From IMG/VR virus record IMGVR_UViG_3300042514_000757, positions 19,783 to 83,782 of that record: a DNA stretch of 64,000 nt. One strand, given 5' to 3'. The position numbers were made by a program, and so were the translations under genes. The number at the start of each line of letters is the position of its first letter. Within the stretch, counting starts at the first letter, position 1. A model generated the notes under the pieces. The model searched no databases. It was not told the DNA's origin and saw only the letters and a program-made list of their open reading frames with translations. Shown here in pieces: positions 32,479-53,638 of this stretch. This stretch comes from a virus.

Positions 32479-32773
32479 GGGTCTTGATCTCAAATAAAGA
32501 AGACTTATAGTATCTGGAGATCTTTTTAGTCTTTTTCCACTTTTCATGTTTAGTGGAATCGGTAGAATGAATTTTCTGAAGTGCTTTCAATTCTTCTAAG
32601 GTTTTATAAATTTTTCTATTCAGGACAGCACTATGTCCTTCATCCTGATTTGGAATATAATTGTCTTGAGGTACAAGACTTTCCACTTCAATCTCGCCTT
32701 CTGGGATGCGTTGTTGCATCTCCTCTGGAAGATCTTCGTATTTAATTTCAGGCAAATCCATTAAGTTCTCCAT
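32453..32773 (-). CDS. Small acidic/basic protein, unknown function
   Basis: 106 aa, ATG at 32773 overlapping the adhesin stop (TAATG). Acidic N-terminal half (LPEIKYEDLPEEMQQRIPEG), Lys-rich C-terminal half. Being translationally coupled to the large glycine-rich protein it may be a chaperone or partner; that is inference from position only. Confidence 0.65.
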   Translation of the reverse strand: MENLMDLPEIKYEDLPEEMQQRIPEGEIEVESLVPQDNYIPNQDEGHSAVLNRKIYKTLEELKALQKIHSTDSTKHEKWKKTKKISRYYKSSLFEIKTLDKLGEMD

Positions 32774-35700
32774 TAAGTACCAGTATTATCTAGATTGTCT
32801 TCATAGTATGTTTCACCACCTGGCAAGTTTGCTGGCAGACTATAACCATACCTATAACGAATCTGACCATCATCACCTTTTCTTCCAGGTATATCATTTC
32901 TGACTTGAGTAACCTTTATCTGGAAGGTGAAATACTGTCCGCTAATATTAGCAGGTTTATCATATATCGTCAAGTTTCTAGTGAGTCCCCACTCTGGAGA
33001 GGTTTTATCCCACCAAGGTTGAGTACCCTCACTTTGTAATGGTGGGAATGTACCAGTAACAGTATCGTTTACGGCCCACCCAGCACCCAATCCCCACTTA
33101 GGGATTCCTCTCAATCTAATTTTAGTTGACCAAGTATTTCCAATCTTAACTGGATTCCACCATAGGGCAAGTTCCAATGATTTTGGTTTGTAAATACCAT
33201 CTCTGTTGATACTATTATTATCTGCTCCTTCATATGTTCCATATCTCAATCTCTGTAGATCCAAATCATTCGTGGGATTTGAATCGGTAGATCCCCAAAA
33301 ATAATGAAAGGGGAACTCTACACCACTCATATCATTTGTCCAAACACCTTGACCCATCCCAGGAATAGTTACATCATAAGTCGATCCAGAAGAATTGTAT
33401 AGTGCATATTCATTGCCGTTAAATATGATACTAAATCTAGTTGGTCTCGATCCACCAAATCCTCCACTACCATGGCGATATGATTCATCATTTGTTCCAG
33501 GACGTTGATAACCAGAAATAAATCCTCCTGGTGCTTGATAAAAATGTTCAACAGTTACTGCTGGATGATTGATAACAAATGTCTTACCAGAAGAACCACC
33601 AAAAGCAGTAGAATCACCATTCTGGCAAGATGCAGATCCATACTTTAAATCATAAGCAGTAAGTCCAGATCTTCCTCGGCGGCCGCCTCCTCCACCGCCA
33701 CCAGGACCATCACCAATTCTATGGTCACTACCATACTTACCGCAGTACATATCAGTTGACCAAATTTTATTCATGGATGGATTGTAAAGTTCTAAAGCAA
33801 GGCCTGCTGGGTTATCTTTCCAGTTATTACCATCTTCACCATTATAAAGAAGGAACCTAAACACATATCTTCCAGCAGAAGAATTTGAAAATGTAATTGT
33901 ATTTGGTACAGAACTTCTAAAGTCTGAGCATGTTCCAATCAAAGTCCAATTATTAGCTCCATTAAGATCTGCAGGTAGAGTAGAAGGGAATGCTGAATTT
34001 GAATTCAGATCTGGATTCCTATCGGGTTCACCATTATAAAATCTAGATCCATCAACATATGATGATTGACCTGGATCATACCATGCTGCTCTGTAGATTC
34101 CGACTTTATTATCGCACAACACTTTAATTGTGTGAGTTCCTACAGAAGATAATTCTAAATTTATCCTAACATCTTGATATTGACCTTGTACTGGATCATG
34201 ATCATTTACCCATACAGACCTTTCTGCCAACCAGTTACTCCAAGATGGATGATATTTACTTACCGAGTATAGTGGTGGGTTTGAAAATAGTGGTATTGCA
34301 TCCCTAAGAAATCCATACGATTCATTCGTATTGATATCAGTTTTTGAAATGTTGTCTCCACTGTACAAATTATTCTGCCAATTACCCCAAGGTGCAGGAT
34401 CACACCCATCATTAGAGTTGCTACTCTTGACATAAGAATCTCCACCATCATTCGATCCTTGTGAACTTCTTGTTGCTCCACCTGATCCCACAACTATAGT
34501 AAGAGTCGCACCAGGAGTTACAGGTACATCAGAAGTCCAAGCATATCCACCACCGCCTCCACCACTTCCATGATCATCACCAGTTGGATCTTTAGCACCG
34601 CTTCCGCCGCCTCCAATACAAACAACTTCACTCAAAGATGTAACTCCTACTGGAACAGTCCAAGAATATGATCCTGGTGATGTATATGAAAGTGTACTGC
34701 TGCCATACTTAATTCTTACGGCTCCATTTCCACCAGCACCGCCTGTCCCGCCAGGGGCGCATCCTCCTCCACCGCCGCCATAGGCGCCTCCAGATGCCCC
34801 GTTAGCAGTGCTACTGCTGGACCCATTGGATAAGTGGTACCCGTCTAGGGAGACCCCGTGGCCTCCTCCACCGCCCTTGGTGGCGATGGTGGCAGTATTC
34901 TTGGATTGCCCCGTCTCATATCTCCCGCCTGCACCGCCTCCATACTTACCTGAAGTTGGATCATCGCTTCCACCATTGCCACCATCATTACCAACTCCAA
35001 CGTGGACTTTACCAGAAATACCTAATTGATAATCGTCCAATCCACCATGACCACCAGTAGAGTAGCATAGAACATTTTTATGTGCATTCGATCCATTTTC
35101 CAAGAAAGATAAACATCCTTGGCCTCCACCTCCACCACCTCCACCAACAGAAGCAATTAACTGACCATTAATATAAAGTTCTGAGGATCCTCCTCCTCCA
35201 CCTCCACCACCTGAGGCTCCATTTTGCCCCGATGTTCCACCTGGAGATCCACCATTAAATGATTTTAATAATTTTTTTTGTTCATTACTGAAATGTATTC
35301 CAGGGCGGCCACCTTCTCCAACTACGGCAACTATGGTATTCGTTATGGATGGATCCAAAGAGATGTTAAATCTCAATAAAGATCCAGTTCCTCCAGAATT
35401 ATTTCCAGATCCCGAACCACCATTAGATCCCCTATCACCACCGCCTGCTCCTCCGCCAGCGCCAATCATAATTACATCCATACTATTAATACCTATAGGT
35501 GTAGTATGTTCGTAAATTCCGTGGGCACTATATCTCTGTATAGATCCACAGATCAACATTGGTTGAACTTCAATTGGTAAGGTTTTTATTTTTGTATTTA
35601 CTGGTAATAACCCTCCACATCTCTCAGCAACAATTGAAGGATCATCCAAGATATCATCATAATCTTCGGCTGTACATTCACTCATAACCCTAGGATCATA

Positions 35701-36114
35701 ACAAATCCTAGTATTCTCATCAATATCAATACATTCTAGTTCCCCAAGTAATCCAGGATCACCTATGGTATCAAGTAAAACTGTTGGTGGAGAATCGATT
35801 GCAACTGTAGCAGGAAGATCACTAACAGGATCTTCTGGACAATCATAATATTTTCCAGTATCAATCAATCCAGTACCTTCACTGGAAGCAATATCACATA
35901 TTGGTCCATATGGACCATTAGGAGTATATTTTTGTAAAACTGTAACAGACTTACAAAGTGATGCTTTCTTCAAAGATGGTGGTCTGGTAGTAGAAGTGGT
36001 AGTATCTTCGACTGAAGATTCGACGATAACTTCTCTTATTATAATTTCTGGTGTAGGTTCAGGGATAATGTCACAAATTGGACCATACAACCCATTAGGA
36101 AAATAGATTGTCAT
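32773..36114 (-). CDS. Giant glycine-rich adhesin/tail-fibre-like protein
   Basis: 1113 aa, ATG at 36114. The N-terminus carries the motif PNGLYGPICDI at residues 6-16 and again PNGPYGPICDI near residue 65. Two glycine-rich domains follow (about residues 215-475 and 480-560, and a third stretch near 790-800), with runs of Gly such as 'GGGGGGGG' separated by short hydrophobic strings, the pattern of polyglycine-II adhesin tips of tail fibres. The C-terminal 300 residues are non-repetitive with many Trp and Tyr, consistent with a receptor-binding domain. No enzyme motif. Next gene is coupled. Confidence 0.78.
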   Translation of the reverse strand: MTIYFPNGLYGPICDIIPEPTPEIIIREVIVESSVEDTTTSTTRPPSLKKASLCKSVTVLQKYTPNGPYGPICDIASSEGTGLIDTGKYYDCPEDPVSDLPATVAIDSPPTVLLDTIGDPGLLGELECIDIDENTRICYDPRVMSECTAEDYDDILDDPSIVAERCGGLLPVNTKIKTLPIEVQPMLICGSIQRYSAHGIYEHTTPIGINSMDVIMIGAGGGAGGGDRGSNGGSGSGNNSGGTGSLLRFNISLDPSITNTIVAVVGEGGRPGIHFSNEQKKLLKSFNGGSPGGTSGQNGASGGGGGGGGSSELYINGQLIASVGGGGGGGGQGCLSFLENGSNAHKNVLCYSTGGHGGLDDYQLGISGKVHVGVGNDGGNGGSDDPTSGKYGGGAGGRYETGQSKNTATIATKGGGGGHGVSLDGYHLSNGSSSSTANGASGGAYGGGGGGCAPGGTGGAGGNGAVRIKYGSSTLSYTSPGSYSWTVPVGVTSLSEVVCIGGGGSGAKDPTGDDHGSGGGGGGYAWTSDVPVTPGATLTIVVGSGGATRSSQGSNDGGDSYVKSSNSNDGCDPAPWGNWQNNLYSGDNISKTDINTNESYGFLRDAIPLFSNPPLYSVSKYHPSWSNWLAERSVWVNDHDPVQGQYQDVRINLELSSVGTHTIKVLCDNKVGIYRAAWYDPGQSSYVDGSRFYNGEPDRNPDLNSNSAFPSTLPADLNGANNWTLIGTCSDFRSSVPNTITFSNSSAGRYVFRFLLYNGEDGNNWKDNPAGLALELYNPSMNKIWSTDMYCGKYGSDHRIGDGPGGGGGGGRRGRSGLTAYDLKYGSASCQNGDSTAFGGSSGKTFVINHPAVTVEHFYQAPGGFISGYQRPGTNDESYRHGSGGFGGSRPTRFSIIFNGNEYALYNSSGSTYDVTIPGMGQGVWTNDMSGVEFPFHYFWGSTDSNPTNDLDLQRLRYGTYEGADNNSINRDGIYKPKSLELALWWNPVKIGNTWSTKIRLRGIPKWGLGAGWAVNDTVTGTFPPLQSEGTQPWWDKTSPEWGLTRNLTIYDKPANISGQYFTFQIKVTQVRNDIPGRKGDDGQIRYRYGYSLPANLPGGETYYEDNLDNTGT

Positions 36115-36166
36115 TACATACGAAAGGTTTTATTTTATTTAGATAACAATTCAAAACAAAAAAACG

Positions 36167-36174
36167 TATAAATA
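36167..36174 (+). promoter_or_regulatory. T4-type late promoter (plus strand)
   Basis: TATAAATA at the head of the plus-strand operon 36414-39538. Confidence 0.8.
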
Positions 36175-36413
36175 ATCTCAGGAGGAGAAATCCTTCGGTT
36201 AGAGATCAGATGTATTACTAAAAGATTCCAGCAATGGCTCTTTCATTAATCCTTCACCTCTAATTGAATTACGATTCAATTTTAAATAGAAGTAATCCCA
36301 GACGATTCACCTACAATTGTCTGTGGGAGCGATTCGTCTGGCATTATGTCATGGACGGATTGAATCGTTTTCTCCTCTCCTTAAACACATTCTTTTCCTT
36401 AAGGAGAAAACAA
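36175..36413 (+). promoter_or_regulatory. Long structured leader of the plus-strand operon
   Basis: About 240 bases without a gene of any length (only a 9-codon ATG frame near 36235). It holds a perfect hairpin AATTGAAT/ATTCAATT (36262-36281), an 8-bp inverted repeat CCAGACGA/TCGTCTGG (36298-36305 with 36334-36341) and TTTTCTCC (36368-36375) that is complementary to GGAGAAAA (36403-36410), the ribosome binding site of the next gene. The leader may therefore control translation. Confidence 0.5.
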
Positions 36414-37241
36414 ATGGCAGAACCCGTTTATATGCCCGATCCATGGGCAGCACTCGCATCACAGCACTCAGACATCCGTAGAGAAGGTTCTGTAGAGCGT
36501 GGCGAGATTCGTTATGACATCGCAACTAAGACTGGCGATGTTCGTGAAGCAGTTCTCGTTGGAAATTCTGATCTTCGTAGAGAAGGAGCAGTCGGTCTTG
36601 GCGAGACTAAGTATGCTATCGCTGCTTCATCAGAAAACACCAACCGTGATGTTTTAACTTCTGGTTATCACACACAAGTTAAGGTAGACGAAGCTGCTGA
36701 TAAGATTCAGCAAAGAGCTACCGACTTCTATATTTCTGGACAAGCAAGAGATTTTGATCAGTCCCGTGATCTTGCTGCTCTAAGAGCAGTCACAGACCTC
36801 GCTTCTCAAAAACTCAGTTCAGAAATTCTTCTCGCTACTGAGAAGACTGCTACTGCTGCTGCTCTTGAGTCAGCAAAAGTTGCTGCTGCTGTAGCACTTG
36901 GTCAGCATCAACTCAGCAGAGAGATTGCTGAAGGTAAGTATGAGACTAGCAAGCAGATTTCTTACGAAAATGAGAAGACTCGTGACCTCATCAATTCACT
37001 CAAGAATGATGAACTCAATCGTATGCTGATTGAGCGTAACACCGACCTAAGTGGTTGCCGTCAGGATTACTGGGCTGCCAGAGAGGGTCTGTTCAACAGT
37101 CAGTTCGCTGCTCTTTCTTCACAAGTTAATTCTCAGTTCAACGCTTTAAACAGCCAAGTAGCTGAGACCCGTCAGGGTATGGTTAACTTCGGAACCATGG
37201 CTGGAGTTGGTCAGTCTTCAACCAGCAACGCTGTACGCTGA
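36414..37241 (+). CDS. Putative abundant structural protein, long alpha-helical
   Basis: 275 aa from ATG 36414 (MAEPVYMPDPWAALASQHSD), preceded by AAGGAG. Almost entirely helical and rich in Ala, Glu, Gln and Arg, with internal repeats of the type 'DIRREGSVERGEIRYDIA' and 'DLRREGAVGLGETKYAIA' (residues 20-80) and later 'NSQFAALSSQVNSQFNALNSQV'. Late promoter, excellent ribosome binding site and a strong terminator directly after it suggest very high expression, hence a virion or particle-coating role. No known domain. Confidence 0.75.
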   Translation: MAEPVYMPDPWAALASQHSDIRREGSVERGEIRYDIATKTGDVREAVLVGNSDLRREGAVGLGETKYAIAASSENTNRDVLTSGYHTQVKVDEAADKIQQRATDFYISGQARDFDQSRDLAALRAVTDLASQKLSSEILLATEKTATAAALESAKVAAAVALGQHQLSREIAEGKYETSKQISYENEKTRDLINSLKNDELNRMLIERNTDLSGCRQDYWAAREGLFNSQFAALSSQVNSQFNALNSQVAETRQGMVNFGTMAGVGQSSTSNAVR

Positions 37242-37261
37242 TTTAGTTCAGTAGTTATCAA

Positions 37262-37287
37262 GGGGGAGACCATCTCCCCCCTTTTTT
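37262..37287 (+). terminator. Intra-operon terminator
   Basis: GGGGGAGA/TCTCCCCC stem with a 3-base loop followed by CTTTTTT, between the helical protein and the collagen-like gene. It would limit read-through and set the ratio of the products. Confidence 0.85.
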
Positions 37288-37301
37288 AAAGGAGAATAAC
37301 T

Positions 37302-37922
37302 ATGGACTCAGCAGAAAGAAGACTTATTGACCTTTATAATCTCCTCGCTCAATACCAAAGAAATGGAGATTCAGATCTTGCTGGAAATATTCAGACAATA
37401 CGTACTGAAATAACCCAGATGTTAAATGCCCGTGCTGGTGGCAATGACAATATTAACATCGTTATAGATGGCGGAGAATGCCCCGATGAATGCCCACCAG
37501 GGCCACCAGGACCACCAGGAGAACAAGGTCCACCAGGACCACCAGGACCCCAAGGGGAACCAGGGGAGGGAACACCAGGACCACCAGGGGAGCAAGGTCC
37601 ACCAGGACCGCAGGGACCACCAGGAGAGTGCTCATGCAAATGCAAAAGCATCTTGGTTTCATCTGATTATACTGCTACTTGTGATGATTACTACATCGGT
37701 GTCAATAGTGACGGACCTGTTACTATTACGTTACCTTCAGAATGTACCGACTGTTGTGAGATCATTGTAAAGGCAGAGATGGGTCCGCCATTGGGAAATC
37801 GTAAAGTTACTGTAACTACTGTTGATGGTAGTTACATTGATGGTAAAGACAAATATGTTATGGAAGTACCTTACCAATCGGTCAATGTATTTTGTCGTGG
37901 TGGAGATTGGTACATCATCTAA
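37302..37922 (+). CDS. Collagen-like fibre protein
   Basis: 206 aa, AAGGAG before ATG 37302. Helical N-terminus ([20 protein letters not shown]), a Cys-flanked linker (GGECPDECP), about 14 Gly-X-Y triplets ([18 protein letters not shown]... with one interruption at GEGTP), a second Cys cluster (GECSCKCK), then a beta domain with '[12 protein letters not shown]', 'VTITLP' and C-terminal '[16 protein letters not shown]'. This domain is shared with the next gene. Likely a trimeric fibre stabilised by disulfides. Confidence 0.85.
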
Positions 37923-37933
37923 CGGAGTAAACA

Positions 37934-38545
37934 ATGGCATACTTAGCACAACCCACATCAAAAACAGATTATGGAGTGGTTGGAGTTGGAGATTTCATTA
38001 ATGTTTTTGATGGATTCATTTCATTAGAACAAGATGTATCTCCTGACGCTTCGGTATCTTTCAATCAAGTTACTATTGATGGAGAGGTTGCTGTAACTTC
38101 AGTAACACCTTCTTCTGGTGATGGTATTAAATTAACTGATGTTGTTACTACAGGTAACGATACGTCGTTCACCATTTATAACACTGGTGTTCTTTCTTTA
38201 ACTGCTGGTGATGGTATTAGTATCTCAGACAGTACTGGTTATATTACTATCTCTGCTTCTGGTGCTGATTTAATTTCCACTATTGGAGTTACTGGTTCTT
38301 ATACCGCAACTGCCGATGATGAATACATCGGTGTCTTTAGTGCATCCGCAGTTACAATCACACTTCCAGTTGGCGTTACTGGTCGTGTTTATATCATCAA
38401 AGATGAGTATGGTCAAGGATCTGGAAAGATTACTATCAAACCATCTGGGACTGAAAAAATTGATAATAAAGCAGATTACATTATATCTGTACCTAATCAA
38501 TCAGTATCCGTCGTATTTCGTGGCGGACAATGGAGAATCATCTAA
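37934..38545 (+). CDS. Fibre-like protein sharing C-terminal domain with collagen-like neighbour
   Basis: 203 aa, CGGAG upstream of ATG 37934. N-terminal half is Ser/Thr/Gly/Val-rich beta structure; C-terminal half repeats the neighbour's domain ('YTATADDEYIGVFS', 'VTITLPVG', 'NQSVSVVFRGGQWRII'). It lacks the collagen region and the Cys clusters. Probably a paralogous fibre or tip subunit. Confidence 0.75.
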   Translation: MAYLAQPTSKTDYGVVGVGDFINVFDGFISLEQDVSPDASVSFNQVTIDGEVAVTSVTPSSGDGIKLTDVVTTGNDTSFTIYNTGVLSLTAGDGISISDSTGYITISASGADLISTIGVTGSYTATADDEYIGVFSASAVTITLPVGVTGRVYIIKDEYGQGSGKITIKPSGTEKIDNKADYIISVPNQSVSVVFRGGQWRII

Positions 38546-38557
38546 TTTTATAAAACC

Positions 38558-39148
38558 ATGAACTTTAATATCAAACCATCTCTACCAGATGACAGAGATT
38601 ACATTTATAGAAACGATAGCACTGAAGTTCTCAGAGAATCTGTAGACCTTCGTGAGTGGGATACTCTACCACAATCCAAAGAATTGATCGAAAACACATT
38701 CAATCAAGATGGAATATATTTAAGAGATGGTCTGAAGTCACTAAAAAAATTAGGCAAAATTTCTTCCTATCAAAAATTAATTAGCATTTATTATATTACT
38801 GAAGTGTTGAATCACAACAAACCAGTTGTATTCGGAATGGAAATTTATGATAGTTTTATGGATCTGAATGAGCGTATTTCTACTGTAAACTTTCCAGGAA
38901 GAAAAGAAAGAAGTATTGGTGGCCATGCTATGTGTATGGTTGGATATGATATGAGGAAAAGATTATTTTTAGCAAAAAATAATCTTGGAACTAAATGGGG
39001 AGACAACGGATACTGTTGGATTCCTTTTGATTACATTAGGCAGGAAGGATACGACATTTGGACTTTTGATATATCAAATCAAGCAGGAGAACCTAATGTA
39101 CTACCACAGACCATACCCCTACTACCATCACAGAAGATATTGCTATGA
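38558..39148 (+). CDS. Papain-like (C1A) peptidase relative lacking the catalytic Cys region
   Basis: 196 aa. It begins like C1A peptidases of marine phages ('KPSLPDDRDYIY', 'SVDLREWDTLP') and keeps the C-terminal half with the active-site His ('SIGGHAMCMVGYD') and Asn ('AKNNLGTKWGDNGYCWIP'). The segment that should follow DLREW and contain 'QGxxGSC' is missing: the sequence jumps to 'QSKELIENTFNQDGIYLRDG'. A second stretch after 'LKSLKKLG' also looks deleted. The frame is intact, so a non-catalytic binding protein is more likely than a dead gene. Confidence 0.7.
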   Translation: MNFNIKPSLPDDRDYIYRNDSTEVLRESVDLREWDTLPQSKELIENTFNQDGIYLRDGLKSLKKLGKISSYQKLISIYYITEVLNHNKPVVFGMEIYDSFMDLNERISTVNFPGRKERSIGGHAMCMVGYDMRKRLFLAKNNLGTKWGDNGYCWIPFDYIRQEGYDIWTFDISNQAGEPNVLPQTIPLLPSQKILL

Positions 39149-39230
39149 CAACTATTATTGGGGTGGTTGCCATCCTTATTACAATAGATATTGGGATTAT
39201 AACCCATATTATTCTTACTATCCTTACTAA
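39096..39230 (+). CDS. Tyr-rich mini-protein of 44 aa
   Basis: ATG 39096 with AGGAGA five bases upstream; the frame overlaps the 3' end of the papain-like gene out of frame. Composition is extreme: about 18 of 44 residues are Tyr, with His, Arg, Pro and Trp (starts MYYHRPYPYYHHRRYCYDNY, ends YYSYYPY). The next gene begins with a similar segment, which argues that this is a real gene and not a shadow. No known family. Confidence 0.7.
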   Translation: MYYHRPYPYYHHRRYCYDNYYWGGCHPYYNRYWDYNPYYSYYPY

Positions 39231-39244
39231 GTAGGAGATTTAAA

Positions 39245-39538
39245 ATGCATTATTATAGACACAATAGGTATCATAGATACCCCTACTATAGGAGATATTA
39301 TAGTCATTATCCTTACTACTATAGAAGATATTATGACCCATATTATAGATACATGAATAATGCAATTGATAGTGATATCGTAAATATTGATGATGATATT
39401 GTCATCTATAGCAATACTCAAAGTAAGGTTGAAGTTTCAGAAGAACATAAACCAAAGGAAATCGTTATGGAAGTGAATGAAGAAGAGGAAGATGATGATA
39501 TATCTAATATCGAACCCTCTCGTCTAATTCTTCTATAG
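39245..39538 (+). CDS. Tyr/Arg/His-rich protein with acidic tail
   Basis: 97 aa, AGGAG upstream of ATG 39245. The first 38 residues are Tyr/Arg/His/Pro repeats (MHYYRHNRYHRYPYYRRYYS...); the rest is acidic (NEEEEDDDISNIE). A cationic aromatic head with an anionic tail. It is the last gene of the plus-strand late operon and is closed by a strong terminator. Function unknown; an adhesive or cross-linked coat component is a speculation. Confidence 0.72.
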   Translation: MHYYRHNRYHRYPYYRRYYSHYPYYYRRYYDPYYRYMNNAIDSDIVNIDDDIVIYSNTQSKVEVSEEHKPKEIVMEVNEEEEDDDISNIEPSRLILL

Positions 39539-39544
39539 CAATAA

Positions 39545-39576
39545 AAAAGAGTGGTTTTGCCACTCTTTCTTTTTAT
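39545..39576. terminator. Bidirectional terminator
   Basis: AAAGAGTGG/CCACTCTTT stem with a 5-base loop, T-rich on both outgoing sides. It ends the plus operon and the minus gene at 39577-39858. Confidence 0.9.
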
Positions 39577-39858
39577 TTAATTTTCTTCTTCTACAGTATT
39601 ACAATCTTGTTGGTAAGCTTTCTCAAGATCTTTAGATTCTCTTGTATCAACAACAACCCATTCCTTTTTAATATCAAGATAGGTTTCCCAGATTGGTACA
39701 CCGTCAGATTCCATTCGTCTGTATAGTCTACCTTGATACGGTGAGAAATATTGCCCAGAGAAGTGACGTGCAACTTCTAGTTTAGGATTCTTTAATTGTT
39801 CTAAAGTTTGCTGAAGATTAGCAATCTGTTCTTCAATTTGTTCAATAGTTAATGACAT
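39577..39858 (-). CDS. Small coiled-coil protein, unknown function
   Basis: 93 aa, ATG at 39858. N-terminal coiled coil (MSLTIEQIEEQIANLQQTLE), then 'FSPYQGRLYRRMESDGVPIW'. No domain recognised. Cotranscribed with the gene at 39868. Confidence 0.65.
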   Translation of the reverse strand: MSLTIEQIEEQIANLQQTLEQLKNPKLEVARHFSGQYFSPYQGRLYRRMESDGVPIWETYLDIKKEWVVVDTRESKDLEKAYQQDCNTVEEEN

Positions 39859-39867
39859 AATTTTTAA

Positions 39868-40272
39868 TTAGGTGAAAACGGCTAGTCCAGTTATATCATC
39901 ATATGAAAGTTGATCAGTAAAACTAATTGTATCTGATCCGATAATTAGATCTTCATCAGATTTAACAAGTTCTACAAGACTCATAAAATAATCTTCAACT
40001 TCATGCAAATCACTTCCACTTGAAAGTTCCCATGCTTTTTCGAAAATCTTATCTGCTTTTGGGTGATTTGTCATAGAATACTTAGAGATTAGATCTCTGC
40101 GAAACTCATTCTGTAGTTTAACAATTTCACCATGATAATGTTTCAGATGAGCATTATATGATATTTCATCTAAAACATATTCTTCCACACATCCATTAGG
40201 TGCTTGAAAATCCTCATCAAATTGTCTTTTCATTCCTACCATTACGCCCTTTCGGTAATAGTAAATAGTCAT
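39868..40272 (-). CDS. Hypothetical protein
   Basis: 134 aa from ATG 40272, with AAAGGA upstream (the longer frame extends past the good ribosome binding site). Begins MTIYYYRKGVMVGMKRQFDE. Mixed helical and charged; no family recognised. Driven by the sigma70-like promoter at 40396-40424. Confidence 0.65.
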   Translation of the reverse strand: MTIYYYRKGVMVGMKRQFDEDFQAPNGCVEEYVLDEISYNAHLKHYHGEIVKLQNEFRRDLISKYSMTNHPKADKIFEKAWELSSGSDLHEVEDYFMSLVELVKSDEDLIIGSDTISFTDQLSYDDITGLAVFT

Positions 40273-40395
40273 ATAATCGTCCTTTTTCGGTATTGATACC
40301 GATGTCTTTTGATAATATGAATAGGGTTTCATTAGGTTTTACTGTATAGTGCAGCAAGACTCTGGGCGCTAGGGGGCTGCCCTTGTCTTGAATAT

Positions 40396-40424
40396 AGTAT
40401 AGCAGACCTTAGTATATACAGCAA
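40396..40424 (-). promoter_or_regulatory. Sigma70-like promoter
   Basis: Minus strand TTGCTG, 17-base spacer ending TGC, TATACT (extended -10). It lies in the 230-base gap 40273-40502, which otherwise holds only an imperfect hairpin (CCTGTCA/TGACGGG) just after gnd and no gene. Confidence 0.6.
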
Positions 40425-40502
40425 GGGTTTTGCGGCACTCTGCAGCACCTATATGTAATGTTCGCATATACCCGTCAGGGATCCATGACAGGCATTGTTA
40501 AA

Positions 40503-41528
40503 TTATCTTACATGATGTCCCCCAAACATGTAACGCATTCCGTTCAGGATTTTTGCTCCGAAGGATCCGAGATTTCGTGAGTTAAATCTTTCAAAAAGGG
40601 CAGTAGTAATAACAGGAGCGGGAACCCCCAGATCCACAGCGGCAGAAACAGTCCAACGACCCTCACCACTGTCGGATACGCCTCCAGAGAACTGTTTAAG
40701 GCTACCATCCCTGCGTAGCACATCAGCAGTAAGATCGAGTAACCAAGACCCAACCACGCTACCACGACGCCATAACTCAGCAACCTCAGCAACGTCAATA
40801 TCATAGCAATAGGATTCTGGGTCTGCCATTGGAGCAACTTCAGCATCACCTTCTCTGACATATTGAGCACCCATATTAGCGTTCTTGATAATGTTAAATC
40901 CTTCTGCGTATGCCTGCATCATACCATACTCAATGCCATTGTGAACCATCTTTACAAAGTGTCCTGCACCTGGACCACCACAATGCAACCAACCAAACTC
41001 AGCAGAAGTTACATCCGAGTCAAACTGAGTCCTCTTGGCAGCACTGATTCCTGGGGCAAGTGCATCAAATATCTTTGCACAAGTGGCGACTGCAATATTT
41101 CCACCGCCAACCATAAGACAGTATCCACGATCCAAACCATAAACACCACCGCTAGTGCCACAATCAATATATTGGACACCAAGTTTTGCCAGACGTTCTG
41201 CTCTCTTCCGACTGTCCTTAAAATTGCTATTGCCATGATCAATAATAATATCTCCTTCACCACAATATCGTAGTAACTCATTGATCGTCTCCTCTACTGT
41301 TTCTGCTGGCACAACCATCTGAAAGATTCCTGGTTGTTGTCCATCTTTTTTTACTATCTTAACAAGATTTTCAATAGTAGTTGCAACTCCATTCACATAT
41401 CCTTTCTCATATGCTTCACTTGCCTTTTCATAATTCCTACGATAACCCCAGACTTCTATTCCTGCCTTCATCATACGACGAGACATTCCTTCACCCATGC
41501 GGCCCAGTCCGATCAATCCAACTCTCAT
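40503..41528 (-). CDS. gnd: 6-phosphogluconate dehydrogenase (decarboxylating)
   Basis: 341 aa from ATG 41528 (AGGA upstream; ATG overlaps the previous stop). NADP-binding 'MRVGLIGLGRMGEGMSRRM', catalytic region 'IDCGTSGGVYGLDRGYCLMVGG' and 'GPGAGHFVKMVHNGIEYGMMQ' with the Lys/Asn/Glu set of the family; length fits the short GntZ-like form. It yields NADPH and ribulose-5-phosphate; with CP12 it points to pentose-phosphate steering during infection. It is read from the psbA side. Confidence 0.94.
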   Translation of the reverse strand: MRVGLIGLGRMGEGMSRRMMKAGIEVWGYRRNYEKASEAYEKGYVNGVATTIENLVKIVKKDGQQPGIFQMVVPAETVEETINELLRYCGEGDIIIDHGNSNFKDSRKRAERLAKLGVQYIDCGTSGGVYGLDRGYCLMVGGGNIAVATCAKIFDALAPGISAAKRTQFDSDVTSAEFGWLHCGGPGAGHFVKMVHNGIEYGMMQAYAEGFNIIKNANMGAQYVREGDAEVAPMADPESYCYDIDVAEVAELWRRGSVVGSWLLDLTADVLRRDGSLKQFSGGVSDSGEGRWTVSAAVDLGVPAPVITTALFERFNSRNLGSFGAKILNGMRYMFGGHHVR

Positions 41529-41731
41529 TTTTCCCAATCCTCGTAAATTTTTCTGAAGTACATATCCACTTTTGTCAAACTATCTAAGTGAATGTCACAA
41601 ACATAATTATGATCATCACACCACTGAAGTGCAATAGCATGAAACTTTTCTTCACTTATGACTCTCTTTACACCATACAATCTGGCGAATGATGACATTA
41701 CAAAATGCCAACACTGATCTTGTGATTTCAT
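41525..41731 (-). CDS. Small protein between psbA and gnd
   Basis: 68 aa (MKSQDQCWHFVMSSFARLYG), ATG at 41731, stop overlapping the gnd ATG. Helical, with several Cys and Trp residues. No domain recognised. Confidence 0.65.
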   Translation of the reverse strand: MKSQDQCWHFVMSSFARLYGVKRVISEEKFHAIALQWCDDHNYVCDIHLDSLTKVDMYFRKIYEDWEK

Positions 41732-41792
41732 TTTTCTAACTAATTATAATGAGTTCTTTCTAAGATGTTATTTTCTGTTATGAATTGACAAC

Positions 41793-41817
41793 AAAAAAGG
41801 AGTCCCGAAGGACTCCT
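41793..41817 (-). terminator. psbA terminator
   Basis: Minus-strand AGGAGTCC/GGACTCCT stem with TTCG tetraloop and TTTTTT tail, 20 bases after the psbA stop. Confidence 0.93.
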
Positions 41818-41838
41818 AAGTTTACTATGAGTAAGAGA

Positions 41839-52215: not shown

Positions 52216-53207
52216 ACCTTCTTCCAAGTGTTAAATTTAAGTTGTGCTTCTAAACCTTCGTAGATATTTGTCTCTACGATTTTCTGAACATCATGTCCAG
52301 CGAGTACCATATCGTTGAGATCCTTTTCATGTATGTCTGAAGGGAAAATTACGATTGGTAGTTTTCTATCTATTACCTTTTGCATCCTAGCAACAATCTG
52401 CTGGTTTCGTGGTTCATTGTCATAAACGAATACGAAGTTACTTTTACCAGAAACGAATTCCCAATCCACATCAGCACCAACCATAGCTATTGCATTAGTT
52501 AGAAACAGACTATCAATAGGACCTTCGGTAATAAAGACATCTTTAGTGTAATCAACTCCATCAAGATTATAGATCTTTGGATGAGAGTCATCTAGGATGG
52601 TAGTAATATACCTCAACTGGGTATTGTTTGTCAAGGATCGACCTTGAAAACCAAACCACTCACCATTCCTAATGAGTGGAATAATGATTCGACTATGATC
52701 GTTATCTACGTTGTCGAATGTATCTTTCTGAGAATTTACCCACGCTTTATATTTGGGGCAGTAGTAAAGTTTATTTAGTTTATCTTTGGGGATCTTCCGA
52801 TCCAGTAAATACTTTTTTGCGGGGTGTACCTCATCGAGAATGGAAATAGGAACAACACCTTTCTTATCACTTTTGAATTTCGGTTTATCGAATTCTAGTT
52901 TTGGGTTGGGGGTGTTTGTTGCCTTTCCAGTGAGACCCTCTTTATATCGTTTTAGAACGTATTCATCATAGAGATCTGTAGCATTGTCCTTTAGGAAATT
53001 TGCAAGAGTCCTTCCGACTCCACAGTTATGACACTTGAAAAGGATGTCATTCTTTTTCAGATAGAAATACCCCCGTGTTTTAGACTTACTCTTATGTGAG
53101 TCTCCACAGTAGGGGCATCGGAAGTTATAAAGATTGTCTTTCTTTCGTGAAAATTTTTCCAGTCTGGATGAGACTAGACTCACATATTCAACATCAATGT
53201 AACTCAT
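52212..53207 (-). CDS. 61: DNA primase gp61
   Basis: 331 aa, ATG at 53207. N-terminal zinc finger 'FRCPYCGDSH' with 'FKCHNCGVG', RNA polymerase body, then TOPRIM segment 'DVFITEGPIDSLFLTNAIAM' and 'NFVFVYDNEP'. Partner of gp41 helicase. It heads the primase-nrdA-nrdB-lysin run from the consensus promoter at 53234-53262. Confidence 0.94.
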   Translation of the reverse strand: MSYIDVEYVSLVSSRLEKFSRKKDNLYNFRCPYCGDSHKSKSKTRGYFYLKKNDILFKCHNCGVGRTLANFLKDNATDLYDEYVLKRYKEGLTGKATNTPNPKLEFDKPKFKSDKKGVVPISILDEVHPAKKYLLDRKIPKDKLNKLYYCPKYKAWVNSQKDTFDNVDNDHSRIIIPLIRNGEWFGFQGRSLTNNTQLRYITTILDDSHPKIYNLDGVDYTKDVFITEGPIDSLFLTNAIAMVGADVDWEFVSGKSNFVFVYDNEPRNQQIVARMQKVIDRKLPIVIFPSDIHEKDLNDMVLAGHDVQKIVETNIYEGLEAQLKFNTWKKV

Positions 53208-53638
53208 CTAGATTGGGTTTGGTTGCTCCCCCCATTATAGGCCATTCCCAGCATGTTGTCAACAAAGGGGACGACGAAACCCACGATCAGGACGGCGGCA
53301 CCAGTCAGGGCGGCGGCCTGCCATTTGAATTTTGATAATTCGGTTATATTGTTCTCTACAGTTTCCAATCTCTTGATAACAGATTTGTGCTCTTCGGAAT
53401 TTTGATGCTTAACATCCTCTATCATTTTTACAATTAGGTCATCTGTCTTGATGCTCTGCTCAATACGTTCATCGTGCTTAGCAAGAATGTTTGCAATACG
53501 TTGATTGGATTCCGAGATTTTATCTACAGCGTTCTCCAACTTGTCTAACATCTCCCTGGATAGAGTTTCGTAGATGTTTAATTTAGACTCCAGTACATCT
53601 AACTTGGCGAGTTCTTTGTTTATTGTATTGTTAAACAT
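53204..53638 (-). CDS. Coiled-coil membrane protein, unknown function
   Basis: 144 aa, ATG at 53638, stop overlapping the primase ATG. Long coiled coil (residues 1-105) and one C-terminal transmembrane helix ('AAALTGAAVLIVGFVVPFV'). Such topology occurs in phage holin- or spanin-like proteins, but I cannot assign it. Confidence 0.65.
   Translation of the reverse strand: MFNNTINKELAKLDVLESKLNIYETLSREMLDKLENAVDKISESNQRIANILAKHDERIEQSIKTDDLIVKMIEDVKHQNSEEHKSVIKRLETVENNITELSKFKWQAAALTGAAVLIVGFVVPFVDNMLGMAYNGGSNQTQSR
53234..53262 (-). promoter_or_regulatory. Consensus sigma70 promoter for primase/nrd operon
   Basis: Minus strand TTGACA, 17-base spacer, TATAAT; perfect hexamers, located in the 3' end of the coiled-coil gene about 27 bases before the gp61 ATG. 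Confidence 0.88.

Follow-up and report, generated by a model that had tools for sequence, protein, structure and literature searches.

Tyrosine-rich mini-proteins in an accessory fibre cassette of large T4-like phages, and a shared 33-residue tag that suggests an appendage component

What might two very small and extremely tyrosine-rich proteins contribute to a phage operon that also encodes collagen-like and fibre-like proteins? The question is raised by a stretch of 64,000 nucleotides from a cyanobacterial virus, IMG/VR record IMGVR_UViG_3300042514_000757 (the window, meaning the whole stretch of DNA that was analysed), in which the operon runs from gene 1, encoding a predicted coiled-coil rod, through collagen-like, fibre and papain-like genes to TyrA, TyrB and a terminator. 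Its features are as follows:

36146..41837: island of 5.7 kb without counterpart in Synechococcus phage S-CREM1 (blastn), containing the cassette, two small genes and gnd
36167..36174, plus strand: T4-type late promoter-like motif TATAAATA (exact), 247 nt 5' of gene 1
36414..37241, plus strand: gene 1, predicted coiled-coil rod protein of 275 aa (alignment of 34 sequences; AlphaFold2)
37140..37238, plus strand: C-terminal tag of gene 1, 33 residues, near-invariant in distant phages
37302..37922, plus strand: collagen-like protein (PF01391), with a C-terminal beta domain in common with the fibre
37934..38545, plus strand: fibre-like protein (alignment; weak Phage_depo_C match)
38558..39148, plus strand: papain-like (C1) protein (PF00112), catalytic Cys region deleted
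39096..39230, plus strand: TyrA, ATG at 39096 and stop at 39228-39230; 44 aa with 18 Tyr (41%)
39245..39538, plus strand: TyrB, 97 aa, Tyr-rich N-terminal domain at about 39245-39355
39356..39454, plus strand: degenerate tag region of TyrB (alignment; key Q, N, G, M and Q lost)
39539..39578, plus strand: predicted intrinsic terminator ending the operon (hairpin of -13.6 kcal/mol, then a T-rich stretch)

The first-pass annotation had described two adjacent Tyr-rich mini-genes with perfect ribosome binding sites, and this description holds: a strong Shine-Dalgarno site, AGGAG, precedes both TyrA (39085-39089) and TyrB (39233-39237), and TyrA, which had been given as a 44-residue gene overlapping its predecessor out of frame, shares 53 nt with the papain-like gene in a different frame. 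The proposed content of about 40% Tyr in the N-terminal parts agrees with the composition of TyrA and with the 14 Tyr among residues 1-30 of TyrB (47%; 19% over the full length), which also bears the acidic tail ascribed to it. Both proteins are rich in Y, R and P, and their DNA is of low complexity and rich in TAT and TAC. They take the first two places when the window's ORFs of 30 aa or longer, 580 in all, are ranked by Tyr content, their best 30-residue stretches reaching 50% and 43% (values for the pair, in any order), and the top ORF of each of 40 dinucleotide shuffles had at most 27% Tyr per 30 residues.

When the papain-like gene was used as an anchor in IMG/VR, 26 loci were recovered, comprising the close L001-L022 and the distant L023-L026. 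Conservation of the Tyr-rich frames, whose absence from relatives had been named beforehand as speaking against the genes, was found throughout the close set, where TyrA and TyrB lie 3' of the papain-like gene in 22/22 relatives (11 distinct versions); the four distant papain-like genes are without them. The start of TyrA keeps its place with respect to the papain-like gene, and the 11 versions checked all retain ribosome sites, AGGAG or GGAG. The median pairwise dN/dS was 0.09 for TyrA (29/66 pairs with computable dS, the others being saturated), 0.14 for TyrA outside the overlap (33/66 pairs computable) and 0.18 for TyrB (37/66), values which indicate purifying selection on both genes, and different codons are used in 716 of the 2082 aligned Tyr-Tyr codon pairs (34%). 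A chance or low-complexity artefact is ruled out by the shuffles, the dN/dS values and the Tyr codon differences, and TyrA and TyrB are real, conserved genes.

The composition had been called unlike that of known phage families, and no named Pfam or PHROGs family was matched, so that membership of TyrA and TyrB in a known family was rejected. Pfam gave no family for either protein at E 0.1 and one chance-level match (E 1), to a single protein of four distant TyrB; in PHROGs, TyrA and four distant TyrB proteins had 0 matches, and TyrB had a single weak match to phrog_31062 (E 0.011, function not assigned). Matches of gene 1 were likewise weak, namely one in PHROGs (E 0.0015, function not assigned), one in Pfam for the gene 1 of L094 (E 0.031, below cut-off) and, among PDB sequences, only a designed helical protein (E 0.061). 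No relative of gene 1, TyrB or the L094 fibre was found among 50,697 deposited phage records, the low-complexity filter of BLAST weakening both TyrB searches. A host origin of gene 1 was also considered and rejected, since none of the 26 stretches that matched its alignment pattern in GTDB contigs of bacteria and archaea was confirmed. In the literature, judged by titles, nothing on Tyr-rich phage proteins was found.

The remaining genes of the cassette are more readily placed. The collagen-like gene matches the Gly-X-Y repeat profile PF01391 at 32.9 bits (cut-off 27.2), and its C-terminal domain cross-matches that of the fibre protein, which has 60-89% identity across distant phages in alignment, a match to Phage_depo_C under the cut-off and no relative among solved structures in the PDB. 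The papain-like gene matches the C1 fold profile PF00112 at 34.1 bits (cut-off 20.7) and is the only cassette gene searched that has relatives in deposited phages, all of them below 60% identity. Two in-frame deletions in the window copy remove the catalytic Cys segment, and 12 other aligned sequences retain the Cys; the window protein may be a pseudoenzyme, or the deletions may reflect an assembly error in the sequence.

The exact T4-type late motif upstream of gene 1 suggests, at the level of sequence, that the promoter of the operon is late-type. The motif TATAAAT[AG] was found within 350 nt 5' of gene 1 in 13/35 loci, where the background rate is 0.028 for each 350 nt of one strand, and in 0 of the loci with a LuxR-type gene upstream of gene 1. 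By DNA, the nearest deposited relative is the cultured phage S-CREM1, which matches 74% of window 26000-50900 at 82.7% identity and has Synechococcus sp. CB0101 as its host according to the record annotation. It is syntenic with the window up to 36145 and again from 41838, with 46 nt between the two blastn matches, and fewer than 80 bp separate its psbA from its large Gly-rich gene. S-CREM1 is a lytic phage (PMC9964418); as it lives without the cassette, the cassette is accessory. The 36146-41837 difference fits both a gain in the phage of the window and a loss in S-CREM1. Adjoining the island is a gene for a large Gly-rich protein (32773-36114, minus strand; PF21722), whose S-CREM1 counterpart is annotated as 'collagen-like'.

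How far the association of these genes extends was assessed by a census of gene 1. The search with gene 1 gave 53 loci, to which a second scan contributed little; once identical copies had been collapsed and those loci added which the pattern had overlooked, the total was 42 distinct loci including the window. The census comprises the 37 in which downstream sequence extends for 2.5 kb or more, five (L068, L069, L080, L085 and L087) having been dropped for short downstream sequence; the excluded L087 does have a Tyr-rich ORF. A Tyr-rich small ORF lies downstream of gene 1 in 30/37 loci (27/33 plus 3/4) and a small downstream protein with the 33-residue tag in 24/37 (including L084, L089 and L151), counts which are not independent because the loci are related. 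On the minus strand of 36 gene 1 loci, no Tyr-rich small ORF was found, and upstream of gene 1 there was one. A collagen-like gene follows gene 1 in nearly all loci, fibre and papain-like genes are frequent, and the order collagen, fibre, papain, Tyr genes recurs in distant phages. The link of the Tyr-rich genes to collagen-like and fibre-like genes, which had been drawn from the window, is therefore conserved well beyond its phage. Among the seven loci without a Tyr-rich small ORF, L072, L074, L086 and L088 are also without a separate fibre gene and a papain-like gene (the 130-aa ORF of L072, a homologue of window 39868-40332, was not scored as Tyr-rich), fibre and papain-like genes are both present in L091, the nearest thing to one in L096 is a Trp/Asp-rich protein with 20% Tyr, and the tagged protein of L084 contains little Tyr. 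No tag can be recognised in the Tyr-rich proteins of six loci, including that of the window, and the charge of the Tyr domain differs, being Arg-rich in the window and Asp-rich in L090 and L095.

The T4-type major capsid protein Gp23 was detected in 6/14 virus records and a photosystem reaction-centre gene also in 6/14, where records may be fragments; the module thus reaches phages without detected photosystem genes. Several other genes were noted at these loci. A LuxR/GerE-type DNA-binding gene lies just 5' of gene 1 in L090-L095 (at 5104-5868 in L094), L097-L102 and L105, loci that all fall outside the cyanophage clade. In the 250 kb T4-like record G006, which is also the source of L095, genes for CsgF (PF10614, E 7.6e-11) and CsgG (PF03783, E 1e-48) lie about 6 kb from the cassette (L108:857-3117), together with one for a 270-aa repeat protein that is curlin-like by eye and has no Pfam match. 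A 400 kb cassette-bearing record has a porin-like gene, again by eye (L098:9333-10208, minus strand). The window also encodes a coiled-coil protein with a C-terminal hydrophobic segment (53204-53638, minus strand), and genes resembling it by eye follow TyrB in L001, L003, L011 and L015.

A further connection between TyrB and gene 1 comes from the 33-residue tag. In six frames of the close relatives, the pattern Q...N[FY]G.M..V.Q is confined to TyrB and the C-terminal end of gene 1, and hhalign of gene 1 (34 sequences) against TyrB (17 sequences, the window TyrB left out) aligned 33 gapless columns at the gene 1 end with E 1.1e-7. When a tag model was run over the 14 virus records (59 to 400 kb), it matched gene 1 in 14/14 and a second gene in 10/14; since several matched sequences had built the model, those matches are by construction, and the informative result is that no third gene was matched at E up to 1. 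Tag identity was 0.386 within a locus versus 0.353 between loci (0/2000 shuffles; 24 loci tried and 23 used, gene 1 of L151 having been missed), an excess inflated by the shared ancestry of the phages, and the TyrB tags were partly selected by a pattern fixing Q, N, G, V and Q. The tail of the window TyrB aligns with its relatives at the start of the tag and the key residues are gone, so that its tag has been lost; in the window's own virus record the model matches gene 1 only. This divergence also explains why a scan begun from the window TyrB gave only 6 loci, where one with a relative placed first gave 21. Neither the tag and its loss from the window TyrB nor the missing catalytic Cys and the accessory island had been noted in the first-pass annotation. 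AlphaFold2 predicts gene 1 as a single helix over residues 10-262 (mean pLDDT 81, the last 12 residues below 50) and the TyrB of L094 as disordered (pLDDT 47), which is uninformative as structure.

The conserved collagen-like and fibre company, the rod, the shared tag and the disordered aromatic chain are best fitted by a reading in which TyrA and TyrB, as late accessory products of the fibre cassette, serve as a tag-directed aromatic component of an accessory appendage in large T4-like phages, to which we give a probability of about 0.5. In this mechanism, rods would be supplied by gene 1, in the form of a long alpha helix, and also by the collagen-like and fibre genes, and TyrB would be a disordered, aromatic-rich chain. 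The tag common to TyrB and the end of gene 1 would steer both to one partner, or to each other, and the aromatic chain would thereby be displayed on or along the appendage, where its high density of Tyr, together with Arg, Pro, His or Asp, may provide non-specific adhesion or hold the rods together. TyrA, which has no tag and occurs in the cyanophage clade, would accompany TyrB. That the tag is shared with the rod protein suggests that the Tyr proteins are built onto a sticky virus appendage, which would place them on the virion and have them co-assemble there; adhesion by the Tyr domains is suggested by their composition. In the window, TyrB has lost its tag and the papain-like protein its catalytic Cys, so TyrB may here depend solely on the Tyr domain; alternatively, the cassette may be in decay. 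A bolder form, which we regard as improbable, would make the cassette a phage molecular glue, in which a homotypic motif of 33 residues, shared by rod and aromatic chain, would let them recognise each other or themselves and build up, by polymerisation, a sticky coat or fibre, either round lysed hosts or on virions.

Several known systems resemble parts of the proposed appendage. Collagen-like phage tail-fibre proteins (PHROG tail fibre families, PF01391) are like the second gene of the cassette in being collagen-like with a C-terminal beta domain, but neither gene 1 nor the Tyr proteins match these families; the collagens of E. coli prophages are reportedly counted among them, and such proteins are not known to have a Tyr-rich partner or a shared tag. 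T4 fibritin, which forms the whiskers, is a coiled-coil appendage comparable to the long rod predicted for gene 1, although gene 1 has no PDB relative save the designed protein mentioned above. The spore coat protein CotC and its relatives are Tyr-rich and form dityrosine, and the likeness is that of very small, very Tyr-rich proteins for which particle coating is proposed. CotC is instead Lys/Asp-rich, and no oxidative cross-linking enzyme was found in the phage records: profiles for tyrosinase, Cu-oxidase and haem peroxidase (PF00264, PF00394 and PF00141) matched 0/14, a result to be read with the provisos that most records may be fragments, that host enzymes are possible and that tyrosinase control genomes also gave 0. 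The first-pass annotation had compared the composition with that of adhesive or cross-linking proteins and had suggested a particle coat or extracellular matrix; its cross-linking idea gains no support from these enzyme searches.

The same disorder of TyrB, the Y-, R- and P-rich composition and the tag in common with the rod protein would also be expected if TyrA and TyrB were intracellular helpers that do not stay in the particle, their Tyr/Arg sticker chains forming condensates in which the products of gene 1 and of the collagen and fibre genes are concentrated for assembly. We consider this unlikely, as the Tyr domains of L090, L095 and L096 are Asp/Trp-rich and not Arg-rich, which fits poorly with general Tyr-Arg stickers.

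More doubtful still is an extracellular aggregate or matrix round the lysed host or its neighbours, serving new-host capture, in which gene 1 and TyrB would co-polymerise via the tag. The regular spacing of N, G, V and Q in the tag and the CsgF, CsgG and repeat-protein genes within about 6 kb in 1/14 records recall curli (CsgA/CsgB with CsgF/CsgG), where two proteins of the same operon share an N/G/Q-spaced motif, and a curli-like capture idea for pelagimyophages that carry CsgF/CsgG is put forward in a published account (PMC7029224). Against this, the Curlin repeat profile matched none of four TyrB proteins and one gene 1 at E up to 1, CsgG is present in just one of the records, and AlphaFold2 predicts no beta structure for the tag. 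On the profile result, curlin membership was rejected for the tag itself.

Small phage proteins are often host-directed, and TyrA is without the tag, so TyrA and TyrB could be small host-takeover or regulatory proteins riding in a late operon; their steady coupling to gene 1, collagen and fibre in distant phages, and the tag in common with the rod protein, make this very improbable. Finally, non-coding low-complexity repeats would suit the TAT/TAC-rich DNA but can be discounted almost entirely, given the conserved ribosome sites and frames, the dN/dS well below 1, the 34% of aligned Tyr codons that differ and the Tyr-rich ORFs retained in distant phages.

What is new here is a protein family and a gene module, whose mechanism we infer: a previously undescribed accessory cassette found both in cyanophages and in further T4-like phages of large size. 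Through the tag that TyrB and gene 1 share, an oddity of composition becomes a binding hypothesis open to test, with S-CREM1 as a comparison that naturally lacks the cassette. Were the adhesive reading true, phages would use aromatic low-complexity chains as glue, and the glue reading in particular would, if true, add to viral adhesives a class that has no relation to receptor-binding fibres.
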